Positions 7,067-12,048 of a stretch of 25,565 bases of DNA are shown one piece after another. The notes under the pieces are model-generated. The model was not told where the DNA came from, made no database searches, and was given only the letters and a program-made list of their open reading frames with translations. This stretch comes from a virus. Position numbers and translations under genes: made by a program. The number at the start of each line of letters is the position of its first letter. Position 1 is the stretch's first letter. The stretch covers positions 1-25,565 of the IMG/VR virus record IMGVR_UViG_3300022934_000159; one strand, given 5' to 3'.

Positions 7067-7415
7067 CCTTGCGTCTCCCATCTTTGAATTTGATCTTGTG
7101 ATGCCGGGCTACACTATCAACTGAGTTCCAAGTAACGCCCATTGCTTGTGCTGTTTGCATCTTTGTTAATCCCTGACGCGCATATGATTCATATTCTTCC
7201 GGGCTGAAGCCTCTGCGCCCGCCGTTGGTATCTTTGAACAGCGGCCAATCCAGAGAATAACGCTCCGCCATGCTTGAGATTGAGGTTGTTGCTTTGCCCA
7301 GAACCATTGCCGCTTGTGATCGGCTCATTCTTTTATCAATCATTTCTTGCAGCAACGCGGCGCGTTTTGTGTGCATATCTTGGGTTATGCTTGCCCATCT
7401 CTCTTGCCAGTTCAT
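7059..7415 (-). CDS. Double helix-turn-helix DNA-binding protein
   Basis: 118 aa. Two helix-turn-helix-like segments are visible: residues about 31-58 (SRSQAAMVLGKATTSISSMAERY) and about 82-108 (LTKMQTAQAMGVTWNSVDSVARHHKI). Both have the A/G-x-x-x-hydrophobic-G-V/K-T turn pattern of short phage and GcrA-like DNA-binding domains. The product ends in a basic tail. It may regulate phage genes or bind DNA in recombination, as it follows the annealing-protein gene with a four-base overlap. The HTH call is by eye. Confidence 0.65.
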   Translation of the reverse strand: MNWQERWASITQDMHTKRAALLQEMIDKRMSRSQAAMVLGKATTSISSMAERYSLDWPLFKDTNGGRRGFSPEEYESYARQGLTKMQTAQAMGVTWNSVDSVARHHKIKFKDGRRKDD

Positions 7416-8113
7416 TGTGATTGTAACCTGAATGTTTTCTCAACCTGCTTCATGCTTTCATCAGACAGCATATCGATGTGCGCGAAGTTGGCTTCCCACA
7501 GTTCCTCAAACTGTTTCTTTGATCTTTTCTGCGCTCCGTATGACCGGGCAAGATTGATAACTGCCTCGCGGTATTCTTCATCCGTCTGGCATTTCTGTTT
7601 CTCTTGGCCGTTGTGGTAGTACACTGTCCAAGGTGCCGCTTGTGATATCTCTGTTTCATGTGAAACATTCTCCGGCTCAAGAGGTTGAACGCTGATATCC
7701 GGCGCGGCTTTCTGTTCTTCCATTGCCTTTTCTTTCCGGGAAACTGCCGCGATTTCATTAGCACTTGCGTAAGATCCACCATGCAAACCAAGTGACGCCA
7801 GGGCGCGACCGATCGCAGACGTTTCACAGTTTTCTAGCGCCGATGTTTTGTTGACGTTGCTGGAACCTCTGATCTCCTCGGCCATACCGCTTCCGATGGT
7901 TTGACCTTTGTGTGTTACGATAGCCTTCACAACGACACGCTTCCCATCGTCCACCAATATCTCGGTATCGATCCCCATATGCTCACCAAAGGCCATACGG
8001 AATTGTTCAACGCGAACAAAAACCTCTGTGTATTTCTTGCCTCCGCGCTGGGTGACGCCGTGCGTTCTGTTCAGATCGTTCACGGCTTTCATTGCATCAA
8101 TTAGATTACTCAT
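7412..8113 (-). CDS. Erf/Rad52-type single-strand annealing protein (putative)
   Basis: 233 aa. Residues 1-125 show the layout of Erf/Sak-type phage recombinases: a strand-rich core with TEILVDDGKRVVVKAIVTHK, then KTSALENCETSAIGRALASLG (89-109) and YASANEIAAV. The E-T-S-A-x-G-R-A-L signature is shared by Erf family members that anneal single-stranded DNA. A variable linker (130-165) and a C-terminal helical region with WTVYYHNGQEK and RSKKQFEELW follow. Expected partners are the RusA resolvase (12297) and Gp157-family protein (8408). No exonuclease gene is recognisable nearby. The family call rests on the signature only. Confidence 0.6.
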   Translation of the reverse strand: MSNLIDAMKAVNDLNRTHGVTQRGGKKYTEVFVRVEQFRMAFGEHMGIDTEILVDDGKRVVVKAIVTHKGQTIGSGMAEEIRGSSNVNKTSALENCETSAIGRALASLGLHGGSYASANEIAAVSRKEKAMEEQKAAPDISVQPLEPENVSHETEISQAAPWTVYYHNGQEKQKCQTDEEYREAVINLARSYGAQKRSKKQFEELWEANFAHIDMLSDESMKQVEKTFRLQSQ

Positions 8114-9098: not shown

Positions 9099-9443
9099 CT
9101 AATCAAAATCTTCTGGCCCCAACTCAGGCAGGTTTCTTGCAAGCTGCAACTCGCTCGGCTGCGATCTTAGACGAAAGAAGCCAAGATGTTCTGGATATAT
9201 ATCCATGAACCACCGGGCATAGAGTGCGCTGAAGTTGTTATTTATCTTAAACGTAGACCTTCCTTCGTCGTCTGCCTGGTCTGTTTCCCACCGAATCCGC
9301 TCAAAGACTCCCTTTGCGGAATAGTTATTGAACCCACGCCCGATTACCTCGGACGTGAATTTTACAAAATACTCCCAAACTTTGGGGTTTTCCTTGTGAA
9401 ACTGGATTGCAGCTTCTTCGATCTCTTCGTATCGGGTTTTCAT
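9099..9443 (-). CDS. Conserved phage protein (GFNNYSAKGVFERIRWET family)
   Basis: 114 aa. I recognise the block WEYFVKFTSEVIGRGFNNY followed by FERIRWETDQAD and KINNNFSALYARWFMDIYPEH as a recurring phage and prophage family. It has no assigned function and lies typically in early or replication regions. The fold looks alpha-helical with conserved aromatic and basic residues; no catalytic motif is obvious. The start overlaps the previous stop by four bases (ATGA), so it is coupled to the 174-aa gene. Confidence 0.75.
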   Translation of the reverse strand: MKTRYEEIEEAAIQFHKENPKVWEYFVKFTSEVIGRGFNNYSAKGVFERIRWETDQADDEGRSTFKINNNFSALYARWFMDIYPEHLGFFRLRSQPSELQLARNLPELGPEDFD

Positions 9444-9964
9444 GCTGCGTCCTCCTGATCGCCTCGCAACTTTGAGGCTATCTCTTCAATTGGCTGTAGG
9501 TCTACACCGAAAGCCTCGGCGCATCCACGATACCGACTGAGCCAACGGGTCAAATCCGCTGCGGCTTGCCGCCTTAATTCAGCCCTTGATGTCTCATCTT
9601 CTGGGTTATATGGAACATAGCCGCCGCCCTTACGTCTGTTTGACATTGGGCTGATGAAGGCTGGCGCTTCATAGCTGATAACTGTCGCAAGCTTGCTGAC
9701 GTCTACCTTTTCAACAGGTGGGATGTGAATTTGTATCCGCAATCCGCTGACCAATTGACGAGCCAAAGCCATACGATATTGACGCGCTGCTTCTTTGTCG
9801 CCGGTTCCAAAGAACCTTTCATAGCAAGGATGGTCTGGTTTATCTTCAAGCCATTCTGTAAACTCATCAACCTTGAACATATTGCGCCGAGTTTCTGTGA
9901 GGTAGCTATCGACTATCTCTTGACGCTCATCCTTGTTCCATATTCTGTCTATTCTTTCTTCCAT
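9440..9964 (-). CDS. Hypothetical 174-aa early protein
   Basis: Preceded by a strong GGAAGG site, the first coding sequence after the pentamer-repeat array. The product has a helical, charged N-terminal half (KVDEFTEWLEDKPDHPCYERFFG), a middle segment with IHIPPVEKVDVSKLATVISYEAPAFIS that may be a beta region, a GGGYVPYNPEDETSRAELRRQ linker and a C-terminal helix (TRWLSRYRGCAEAFG). I recall proteins of this shape in alphaproteobacterial prophages. Function unknown. Its leader contains the 290-bp repeat, so expression may be affected by it. Confidence 0.65.
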   Translation of the reverse strand: MEERIDRIWNKDERQEIVDSYLTETRRNMFKVDEFTEWLEDKPDHPCYERFFGTGDKEAARQYRMALARQLVSGLRIQIHIPPVEKVDVSKLATVISYEAPAFISPMSNRRKGGGYVPYNPEDETSRAELRRQAAADLTRWLSRYRGCAEAFGVDLQPIEEIASKLRGDQEDAA

Positions 9965-10031
9965 TTTTCTTCCTTCCTTTTGTTGGATGGTGAGGGATCA
10001 GCACGACCCCCCACCTTGGTTTAAGCTTCGC

Positions 10032-10321
10032 TTGCCACACCGGACCGCATCACACCGGGCCGCGCCACGCCGGACCCCGACCGCCACGCCAGACCTATCC
10101 CTACCTTGCCCCGCCACGCCTTGCCTTGACCGCCTTGCCTGAACGGACCTAACCGGACCAAGCCTTGCCCCGCCAAGCCGGACCAAACCTTGACCGCCTG
10201 ACCAAACCACATCTTGCGAAACCATACCCCGCCACGAAATACCGAGCCGAGCCACGACCGCCTTGCCTTGAACCGCCCTGCCTGGCCAAACCACGCCCCG
10301 CCTGGACCGCCTTGCCTTACC
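10032..10321. repeat. 290-bp array of 59 degenerate 5-bp units (NNNCC; GGNNN on mRNA strand)
   Basis: Read on the + strand from 10032, the sequence divides without remainder into 59 units: 54 pentamers and 5 tetramers. 48 of the 54 pentamers end in CC, usually as NNGCC or NNACC. All five tetramers end in GA and are followed by CCGCC, so each phase slip has the same form, GACCGCC. On the minus strand, which is the transcribed strand here, this reads GGYNN repeated. It fills most of the 417-base gap between two leftward genes. Frames stay open through it in several readings because the unit lacks stops; a 5-bp period is not a coding period. Bases 9965-10031 and 10322-10381 on either side show nothing recognisable beyond the ribosome site at 9965-9980. 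Confidence 0.9.
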
Positions 10322-10381
10322 GTGTCGTTCAGGTGAATAACGGCAAAATGTCCACCTGTATTGCTTGCCAATAACATCTCC

Positions 10382-11149
10382 TTATGCTGCCATTCTGCGG
10401 GCGCGTTCTTCGTCCAAGAAGCCCATTAACTCTGCTGTCATTTCATCCGCATACTCTGGATAATCCAACGCATACTTTTGTTCTTCCATTCCAAACTTGG
10501 TAATGCGTTTCCAATCGTCCTTGTAATCTTTCCAATTGGGCAACTCTTCGCCGGTTACTGTAAAGCAACCATATGCTCCGCGTCCCTTCTCTTGTCGAAA
10601 GTCTCCAAGCCCAATGATAGAACCCGCATTCTGTAGAAGAGTGAAAACATCTGAGGCTGAAAGCGTAGGCATGACAAACTTGATGTCAATCTCTGCGCAC
10701 CATTCCGGCAAGTAAGCCCTCGTTCGCATGTCTGGCGTCTTGTTTATGTTTGCCATTCGTACCGTGTCGATCTTCAGATATGGCTTGCCATAGATTTCTG
10801 TCTGCAATTGTGGCAGAAACAAAAGGCGCTGTGCGTTTGTTCTTGCAACTCCCTTTGTTTCAATGGCCGCTGTAGACATTGCTTGTTTGATTGCCGCCGG
10901 GGGAAAATACAGGTGCGTGTTCCCATGGCTTTTTTTATACACGGAATCCCGAAACTCTTCTTCTGGATTGTGTTTTATCTCGCGCTTTTCCGCTGTGGTT
11001 TTTGGCGTACCGCCTATGAGCAAATCGCGCTTGGCTTTAATGCTCATTGAATTGTAGTAAAATGGGGTTGCTCCGATAAGTCGCAACTTTATTTCACCAT
11101 GTTTTAGCGCGGTAACTAACGCGCCTTCCGTGGACTTTTTAACTGGCAT
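10382..11149 (-). CDS. Phage-family protein with GLGDFRxEKGRGAYGCF motif, function unknown
   Basis: 255 aa from ATG at 11149, chosen over the in-frame ATG at 11176 because AGGAAGG lies six bases upstream of it. The body contains LRLIGATPFYYNSMSIK (about 22-38), NPEEEFRDSVYK, a FPPAAIKQAMSTAAIETKG segment (82-100) and, at 178-196, the signature GIGDFR-like GLGDFRQEKGRGAYGCF. I recall this pattern (substrate-like N-terminal strand, 'FP..A.K.A' helix, C-terminal G-x-G-D-F/W-R..G.YG..F) from a family of phage and prophage proteins. The glycine-rich ending faintly recalls RAMP/Cas7-type ferredoxin folds, but I cannot confirm that. Placed among recombination genes, a nucleic-acid role is plausible. 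Confidence 0.6.
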   Translation of the reverse strand: MPVKKSTEGALVTALKHGEIKLRLIGATPFYYNSMSIKAKRDLLIGGTPKTTAEKREIKHNPEEEFRDSVYKKSHGNTHLYFPPAAIKQAMSTAAIETKGVARTNAQRLLFLPQLQTEIYGKPYLKIDTVRMANINKTPDMRTRAYLPEWCAEIDIKFVMPTLSASDVFTLLQNAGSIIGLGDFRQEKGRGAYGCFTVTGEELPNWKDYKDDWKRITKFGMEEQKYALDYPEYADEMTAELMGFLDEERARRMAA

Positions 11150-12020: not shown

Positions 12021-12048
12021 AATATAAAGATATCTCTAATAGTGTCAA
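12021..12048 (-). promoter_or_regulatory. Leftward sigma70-type promoter of the early operon
   Basis: On the minus strand TTGACA (12048-12043) is followed after 16 bases by TATATT (12026-12021), close to consensus. It sits 40 bases upstream of the first leftward gene with its AGGAAGG site. All leftward genes to 6557 overlap or lie close together, and I see no second clear promoter in them apart from possible effects of the pentamer array. The two GATATC palindromes frame and enter this promoter. Confidence 0.75.

Follow-up and report, generated by a model that had tools for sequence, protein, structure and literature searches.

A probable VIPR locus of an uncultured virus carries abutting guides, two of which match major capsid genes of presumed marine competitors

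Introduction

The closest described relative of the locus reported here is VIPR, which combines a phage-borne RAMP protein (Vipr) with vrRNAs composed of alternating GGY and NN (2026 preprint, PMC13142463). Vipr is reported to bind the GGY scaffold of the vrRNA, the NN letters pair with double-stranded DNA and leave out one target base in each unit, as shown for SUSP1, and the SUSP1 system silences from either strand (PMC13142463). The guide region of each vrRNA comprises 9-16 GGY/NN units, every vrRNA of type II (SUSP1-like) VIPR has a structured 3' tail, and staggered arrays with overlapping vrRNAs have also been named (PMC13142463). VIPR systems are sorted there into seven types, with accessory genes designated vap1-6. 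A second point of comparison is class 1 CRISPR-Cas, characterized by direct repeats and spacers together with several cas genes.

Here we analyse a 25,565-nt stretch of viral DNA (IMG/VR record IMGVR_UViG_3300022934_000159, positions 1 to 25,565; hereafter the window). The locus that it contains is a member of the VIPR kind: a RAMP-type Vipr with a G-loop is encoded beside an array of GGY/NN units and, as judged by sequence, guides 2 and 3 have one-skip targets that lie in competing elements and not in the phage itself. That this is a phage-encoded VIPR locus with five guides, which would silence the capsid genes of competitors, we regard as highly probable.

Results

Anatomy of the array

The array occupies window positions 10032-10321 on the minus strand and comprises 59 units, namely 54 pentamers and 5 four-base units. 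GG starts 48/54 pentamers, the third letter is a pyrimidine in 53/54, and the full GGY is present in 47/54. GG pairs at a 5-base distance number 38, compared with 14.6 +/- 3.2 (maximum 27) in 2000 dinucleotide-preserving shuffles, and the next-best 290-bp stretch elsewhere in the window holds 7. The initial annotation had arrived at the same 59 units, 54 pentamers and 48 retained GG/CC, counts that proved exact on re-segmentation, and was right that GG and its 5-base spacing are held while the other letters vary, that the stretch represents neither coding sequence nor duplication, and that the transcribed strand matters. Its proposal that the stretch divides exactly into NNNCC did not hold, as a fixed phase keeps CC in only 15/60 units and five of the units are tetramers.

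These tetramers read TCNN after GGCGG or, in YNNGG phase, represent a CGGT insert, and are spaced 49, 64, 64 and 49 nt apart along the array. By breaking the unit phase they set off three leader units and divide the remainder into five blocks, each 49 or 64 nt long; the CGGT frame breaks are guide boundaries and the array consists of five guides, each of 9-12 pentamers plus one 4-base unit, with no bases between them except CGGT in our segmentation. The leader units GGTAA GGCAA GGCGG (10307..10321, minus strand, as are all guides) also start the arrays of two relatives, L004 and L006. Guide 1 (10258..10306) reads CA GG GT TT CA AG GG (then AA AA GG); guide 2 (10194..10257) reads GT TC TC AT GT GG AT TT AA GT TT and matches an HK97-type major capsid gene; guide 3 (10130..10193) reads AA TT CC TT GG AA TT CC TA CC and matches GYGNLPNGNF codons of an HMO-2011-type capsid gene; guide 4 (10081..10129) reads AA AA GT GG AA AG TA CT GT; and guide 5, the last (10032..10080), is the low-complexity series GG CC GT GC CC GT GC CC GT. 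CRISPR-type repeat units were sought in the array and none was found, and an Rfam search returned no match. The concern that the array might be an assembly artefact is removed, and its reality confirmed, since independent contigs from many metagenomes carry similar arrays in the matching place and on the matching strand.

A leader hairpin with a conserved stem lies 5' of the array (10330..10358, minus strand), with compensatory changes in 3/10 pairs among 8 relatives. Past the last guide there is one hairpin only (9989..10015, minus strand), with an 11-bp stem (z -2.5) and, among the relatives compared, compensatory changes in 2/11 pairs and 0 broken pairs. A candidate promoter, TTGACA-16-TATATT (12021..12048, minus strand), is located upstream of the minus-strand genes and has 11/12 consensus letters, the number of such sites being not above that in shuffles.

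Vipr and neighbouring genes

Directly upstream of the array and on the same strand lies vipr (10382..11149, minus strand), whose 255-aa product is identified through profile and fold matches as a RAMP protein (Cas7/Csm3-like) with the G-loop GLGDFRQEKGRG; the G-loop pattern GLGD-R-EKG is conserved. Compared with the SUSP1 Vipr chain (PDB 36pp), the single sequence gave a weak match (E 0.0079) and a 27-member profile gave E 2.9e-5, while hhalign against the SUSP1-type Vipr of phage Alf5 returned a probability of 95.5 (E 1.4e-8). The AF2 model of the protein (pLDDT 84, pTM 0.80) retrieved Csm3/Cas7 structures as all of its top Foldseek matches (E 5e-6), and VIA comparison with Csm3/Cas7 yielded Z 9.9 over 153 residues, Csm3 being the closest fold. 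This 255-aa RAMP-fold gene is the partner of the array, rather than the annealing-protein genes that the initial annotation had mentioned beside it. Annealing-protein genes had been counted near the array; two downstream same-strand regions, window 9099-9443 and 7412-8113, have PHROG matches of unknown function only and none in Pfam.

On the other side of the array, a 174-aa gene (9440..9964, minus strand) has a homologue downstream of vipr in most loci and is probably the vipr accessory gene, vap. The AF2 model of the putative Vap (pLDDT 79, pTM 0.42) had no significant match in a fold search of the PDB; an HTH-like fold was considered and dropped, with weak rows only (Z under 3). Comparison with the SUSP1-type accessory protein revealed no similarity, and Pfam and PADLOC searches returned nothing for the product of either vipr or the putative vap. 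In a 42%-identical clade the accessory gene directly follows vipr, and looser arrays lie downstream of the accessory gene in L036 and L039. The accessory gene of L026 (2995-3840) has an array on either flank, in contrast to the window with its one array.

Guide targets and decoding

Guide 3 was searched against viral contigs as nine NN with a one-base skip, equivalent to 18 fixed bases, and gave at least 120 exact matches. Control searches of the same collection gave 0 with no skip, 0 with a two-base skip and 6 with the NN order reversed. All matches carry the preceding NN and none the last NNs, which consequently look like a 3' handle. The matches lie antisense near the beginning of a ~357-aa ORF, where they cover the GYGNLPNGNF codons; this ORF encodes a major head protein (phrog_267, E 1.6e-63) nearest to the coat proteins of HMO-2011-type Roseobacter and SAR116 phages, and among isolates the agreement is 20/20 in CRP-345, 19/20 in HMO-2011 and 18/20 in CRP-1. 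With a one-base skip the core of guide 2 gave 36 exact matches, of which 31 extend to the NN before the core and, in most of these, to the TT after it; these 31 extended matches fall in one homologous ~415-aa ORF, an HK97-type major head protein (phrog_10).

Matches inside one gene family are not mutually independent, and the matches of guide 3 are homologous and count as one site; independence was therefore examined separately in a blind test. Target contigs were fetched solely with window guides 2 and 3, and were then compared with 82 other guides from sister arrays, from which close variants of guides 2 and 3 had been removed. At a one-base skip, 8/82 guides agreed with the target contigs in all 18 letters or in all but one, compared with 0/82 at each of skips 0, 2 and 3 and 0/492 permuted guides. 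The matching guides fall at other sites, some of them in the same capsid genes and some in an upstream gene. The base passed over is the wobble base of the codon in nearly all targeted places. Together these comparisons support a reading in which the NN letters would specify DNA targets with a one-base skip.

Most of the decoded guides, guides 2 and 3 of the window among them, run antisense to the gene that they target; those of L015/L016 and L028 run in the sense direction. The sense guides at L015 2757 and L016 912 target an unnamed gene that lies just upstream of the HMO-2011-type coat gene, e.g. CRP-9 gp53.

Within the phage's own genome the best self match was 15/22 for guide 2 and 14/20 for guide 3, its own capsid gene being a different family member (phrog_3437), and no targets were found within the 61 vipr-bearing loci and the window. 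Sequence matches thus support the view that guides 2 and 3 would be aimed at the major capsid genes of marine phages that compete with this one, and not at self. Metagenomes common to vipr-bearing and target contigs amounted to 11/66 and 3/24, compared with 2/75 for the guide-5 pattern, a sharing that fits co-occurrence and is confounded by habitat.

Candidate targets of the remaining guides were not retained. Matches of guide 1 were not above permuted controls, and guide 4 had 0 exact matches. Guide 5 had at least 120 matches, yet its next NN (AA) fits only 3/206, and since its pattern also encodes collagen-like repeats no target is claimed. For guide 2, a search of 85,000 bacterial and archaeal genomes yielded 2 Streptococcus matches, about the chance expectation, and hence neither a prophage target nor a clue to the host.

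The family across phages and guide turnover

Relatives of Vipr are encoded in 61 IMG/VR loci. Downstream of vipr and on its strand, close relatives have a GGYNN array, and none was detected on the opposite strand, so that the consistent strand and gene neighbourhood that the initial annotation had proposed to look for across phages are indeed found. A tally of 1665 family units has G at position 1 in 97% of them, G (73%) or T (19%) at position 2 and a pyrimidine at position 3 in 94%, with positions 4 and 5 nearly free. GGCGG precedes the frame break in 136/197 cases in the family arrays, and guides across the family contain 6-18 NN.

Comparison of phages with identical Vipr (L004, L006, L007 and L019) revealed that their middle guides differ, while first and last guides are common to one another or to the window; guides therefore turn over between such phages much like CRISPR spacers. 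An unrelated sequence in this gap among related phages had been named as grounds for rejecting a function, and guides are indeed exchanged, but only inside a conserved scaffold. Where a guide is common to several arrays, the differences, in the few cases available, mostly affect scaffold letters: relative to the window, L006 has two changed scaffold bases in guide 2, and L004 has one in guide 5 as well as, in guide 3, one changed NN base (TG for TA) and a longer 5' part. For guide 5 the NN letters are identical in the window and L004-L006, and scaffold letters alone change. Guide turnover in L004-L007 and L019 was seen without any Cas1-like gene.

Among isolates, Methylophilales phage MEP301 is nearest by its terminase (67% identity); its annotation contains no vipr-like gene, and it is absent from the vipr search matches.

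Discussion

In the mechanism that we propose, vipr and the array would probably be transcribed together from the minus strand, and the array RNA would be cut at the CGGT frame breaks into guides. By analogy with SUSP1, Vipr subunits would occupy the GGY scaffold and leave the NN letters accessible; as both this analogy and the target matches suggest, these letters would pair with double-stranded target DNA with one base skipped per unit. Guides 2 and 3 would thereby read codon positions 1 and 2 of the major capsid genes of two other phage groups, as their sequences match, and binding may silence capsid expression of a co-infecting competitor in a shared host. On the basis of the relatives of both target groups, this host is probably an alphaproteobacterium. 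We count against this reading that three of five guides (1, 4 and 5) have no assigned target, that the internal guides are without the structured 3' tail of SUSP1 vrRNAs, and that the putative Vap is without similarity to the SUSP1-type accessory protein.

An alternative in which the array RNA acts on capsid mRNA rather than DNA, binding or cleaving transcripts in the manner of type III Csm3, draws on the antisense orientation that prevails among the decoded guides and is shared by guides 2 and 3 of the window, and on a Vipr fold that is nearest to Csm3, an RNA-targeting RAMP. We consider it unlikely, given that the L015/L016 and L028 guides run sense and that the target bound by the SUSP1 relative is double-stranded DNA, which it silences whichever strand is addressed (PMC13142463).

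Explanations that deny the array a guide function fare worse. GG recurs every 5 bases on the transcribed strand, which would suit a structural element forming two-layer G-quadruplexes, pacing ribosomes or serving as a recombination hot spot, as initially suggested; these roles are not needed, and they leave unexplained the frame breaks, the targets decodable with a strict one-base skip, the conserved RAMP neighbour, and why shared guides retain their NN letters when the scaffold around them changes, such that we consider a structural element very improbable. Even less credible, to the point of being nearly negligible, is a functionless satellite repeat that arose by slippage and then decayed: its units would be degenerate and its arrays would differ between near-identical phages, as is seen, but variation in the 1665 family units is confined to particular positions, with G at position 1 and the pyrimidine at position 3 held and positions 4 and 5 nearly free, and the targets can be decoded. 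Closest among the earlier suggestions was a ladder of protein or sRNA sites: protein sites on RNA agree with GGY as the scaffold that Vipr reportedly binds (PMC13142463), but the information in the variable letters, which would constitute a gapped guide, was missed.

With the SUSP1 system (PMC13142463; PDB 36pp; Alf5-type locus L357) the VIPR locus of the window shares a phage-borne RAMP, and same-strand noncoding GGY/NN arrays, with a candidate accessory gene next door, together with an apparent one-base-skip decoding in which the wobble base is skipped and competing phages are the targets. Unlike in SUSP1, guides abut with the CGGT break alone between them and lack individual 3' tails, the array as a whole has a hairpin on each side, Vipr has 255 aa and is thus larger than the SUSP1 type (about 200 aa), the putative accessory protein is unrelated, and most targets decoded so far belong to marine phages and are their major capsid genes. 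Type II VIPR has a structured 3' tail on each vrRNA, and the locus is not filed there because only CGGT separates its guides and one hairpin follows the last. With the Csm3/Cas7 proteins of class 1 CRISPR-Cas the locus has in common a RAMP fold with a G-loop, a multi-guide array and turnover between close relatives, but it differs in having no palindromic repeats or spacers, a single RAMP gene in place of several cas genes, a noncontiguous guide, and a phage-borne location. We tentatively suggest, as a possibility somewhat short of an even chance, that the locus represents a VIPR subtype in abundant marine phages that is tail-less relative to the described type II, punctuated only by the one-base CGGT frame break, subject to Cas1-free CRISPR-like turnover and aimed mainly at capsid genes of co-circulating phages, with guides written in a YNNGG code from gapped target sequence.

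These findings support a one-base-skip reading of the gapped GGY/NN code from natural sequences, in phages unrelated to SUSP1, and name real targets in the major capsid genes of an HK97-type group and of HMO-2011-type phages, the latter described as dominant in the sea (PMC9038755). They suggest that uncultured marine phages fight one another with programmable silencers. Guide turnover between near-identical phages makes the origin of new guides testable, which would provide a link to adaptive immunity.

Related genes also occur outside this group. GU169904.1 (Staphylococcus phage SA1) encodes a stretch that shows 100% identity with the Vipr of SUSP1 type from enteric phages, and the stated Staphylococcus host looks doubtful. 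In isolate phages of Gordonia, Mycobacterium and Pseudomonas, vipr relatives are annotated as hypothetical and similar GG-spaced arrays adjoin those inspected; among these loci (L064-L067, from Gordonia, Pseudomonas LESphi2 and Mycobacterium phages), the arrays of LESphi2 are interrupted by hairpin-like tails.
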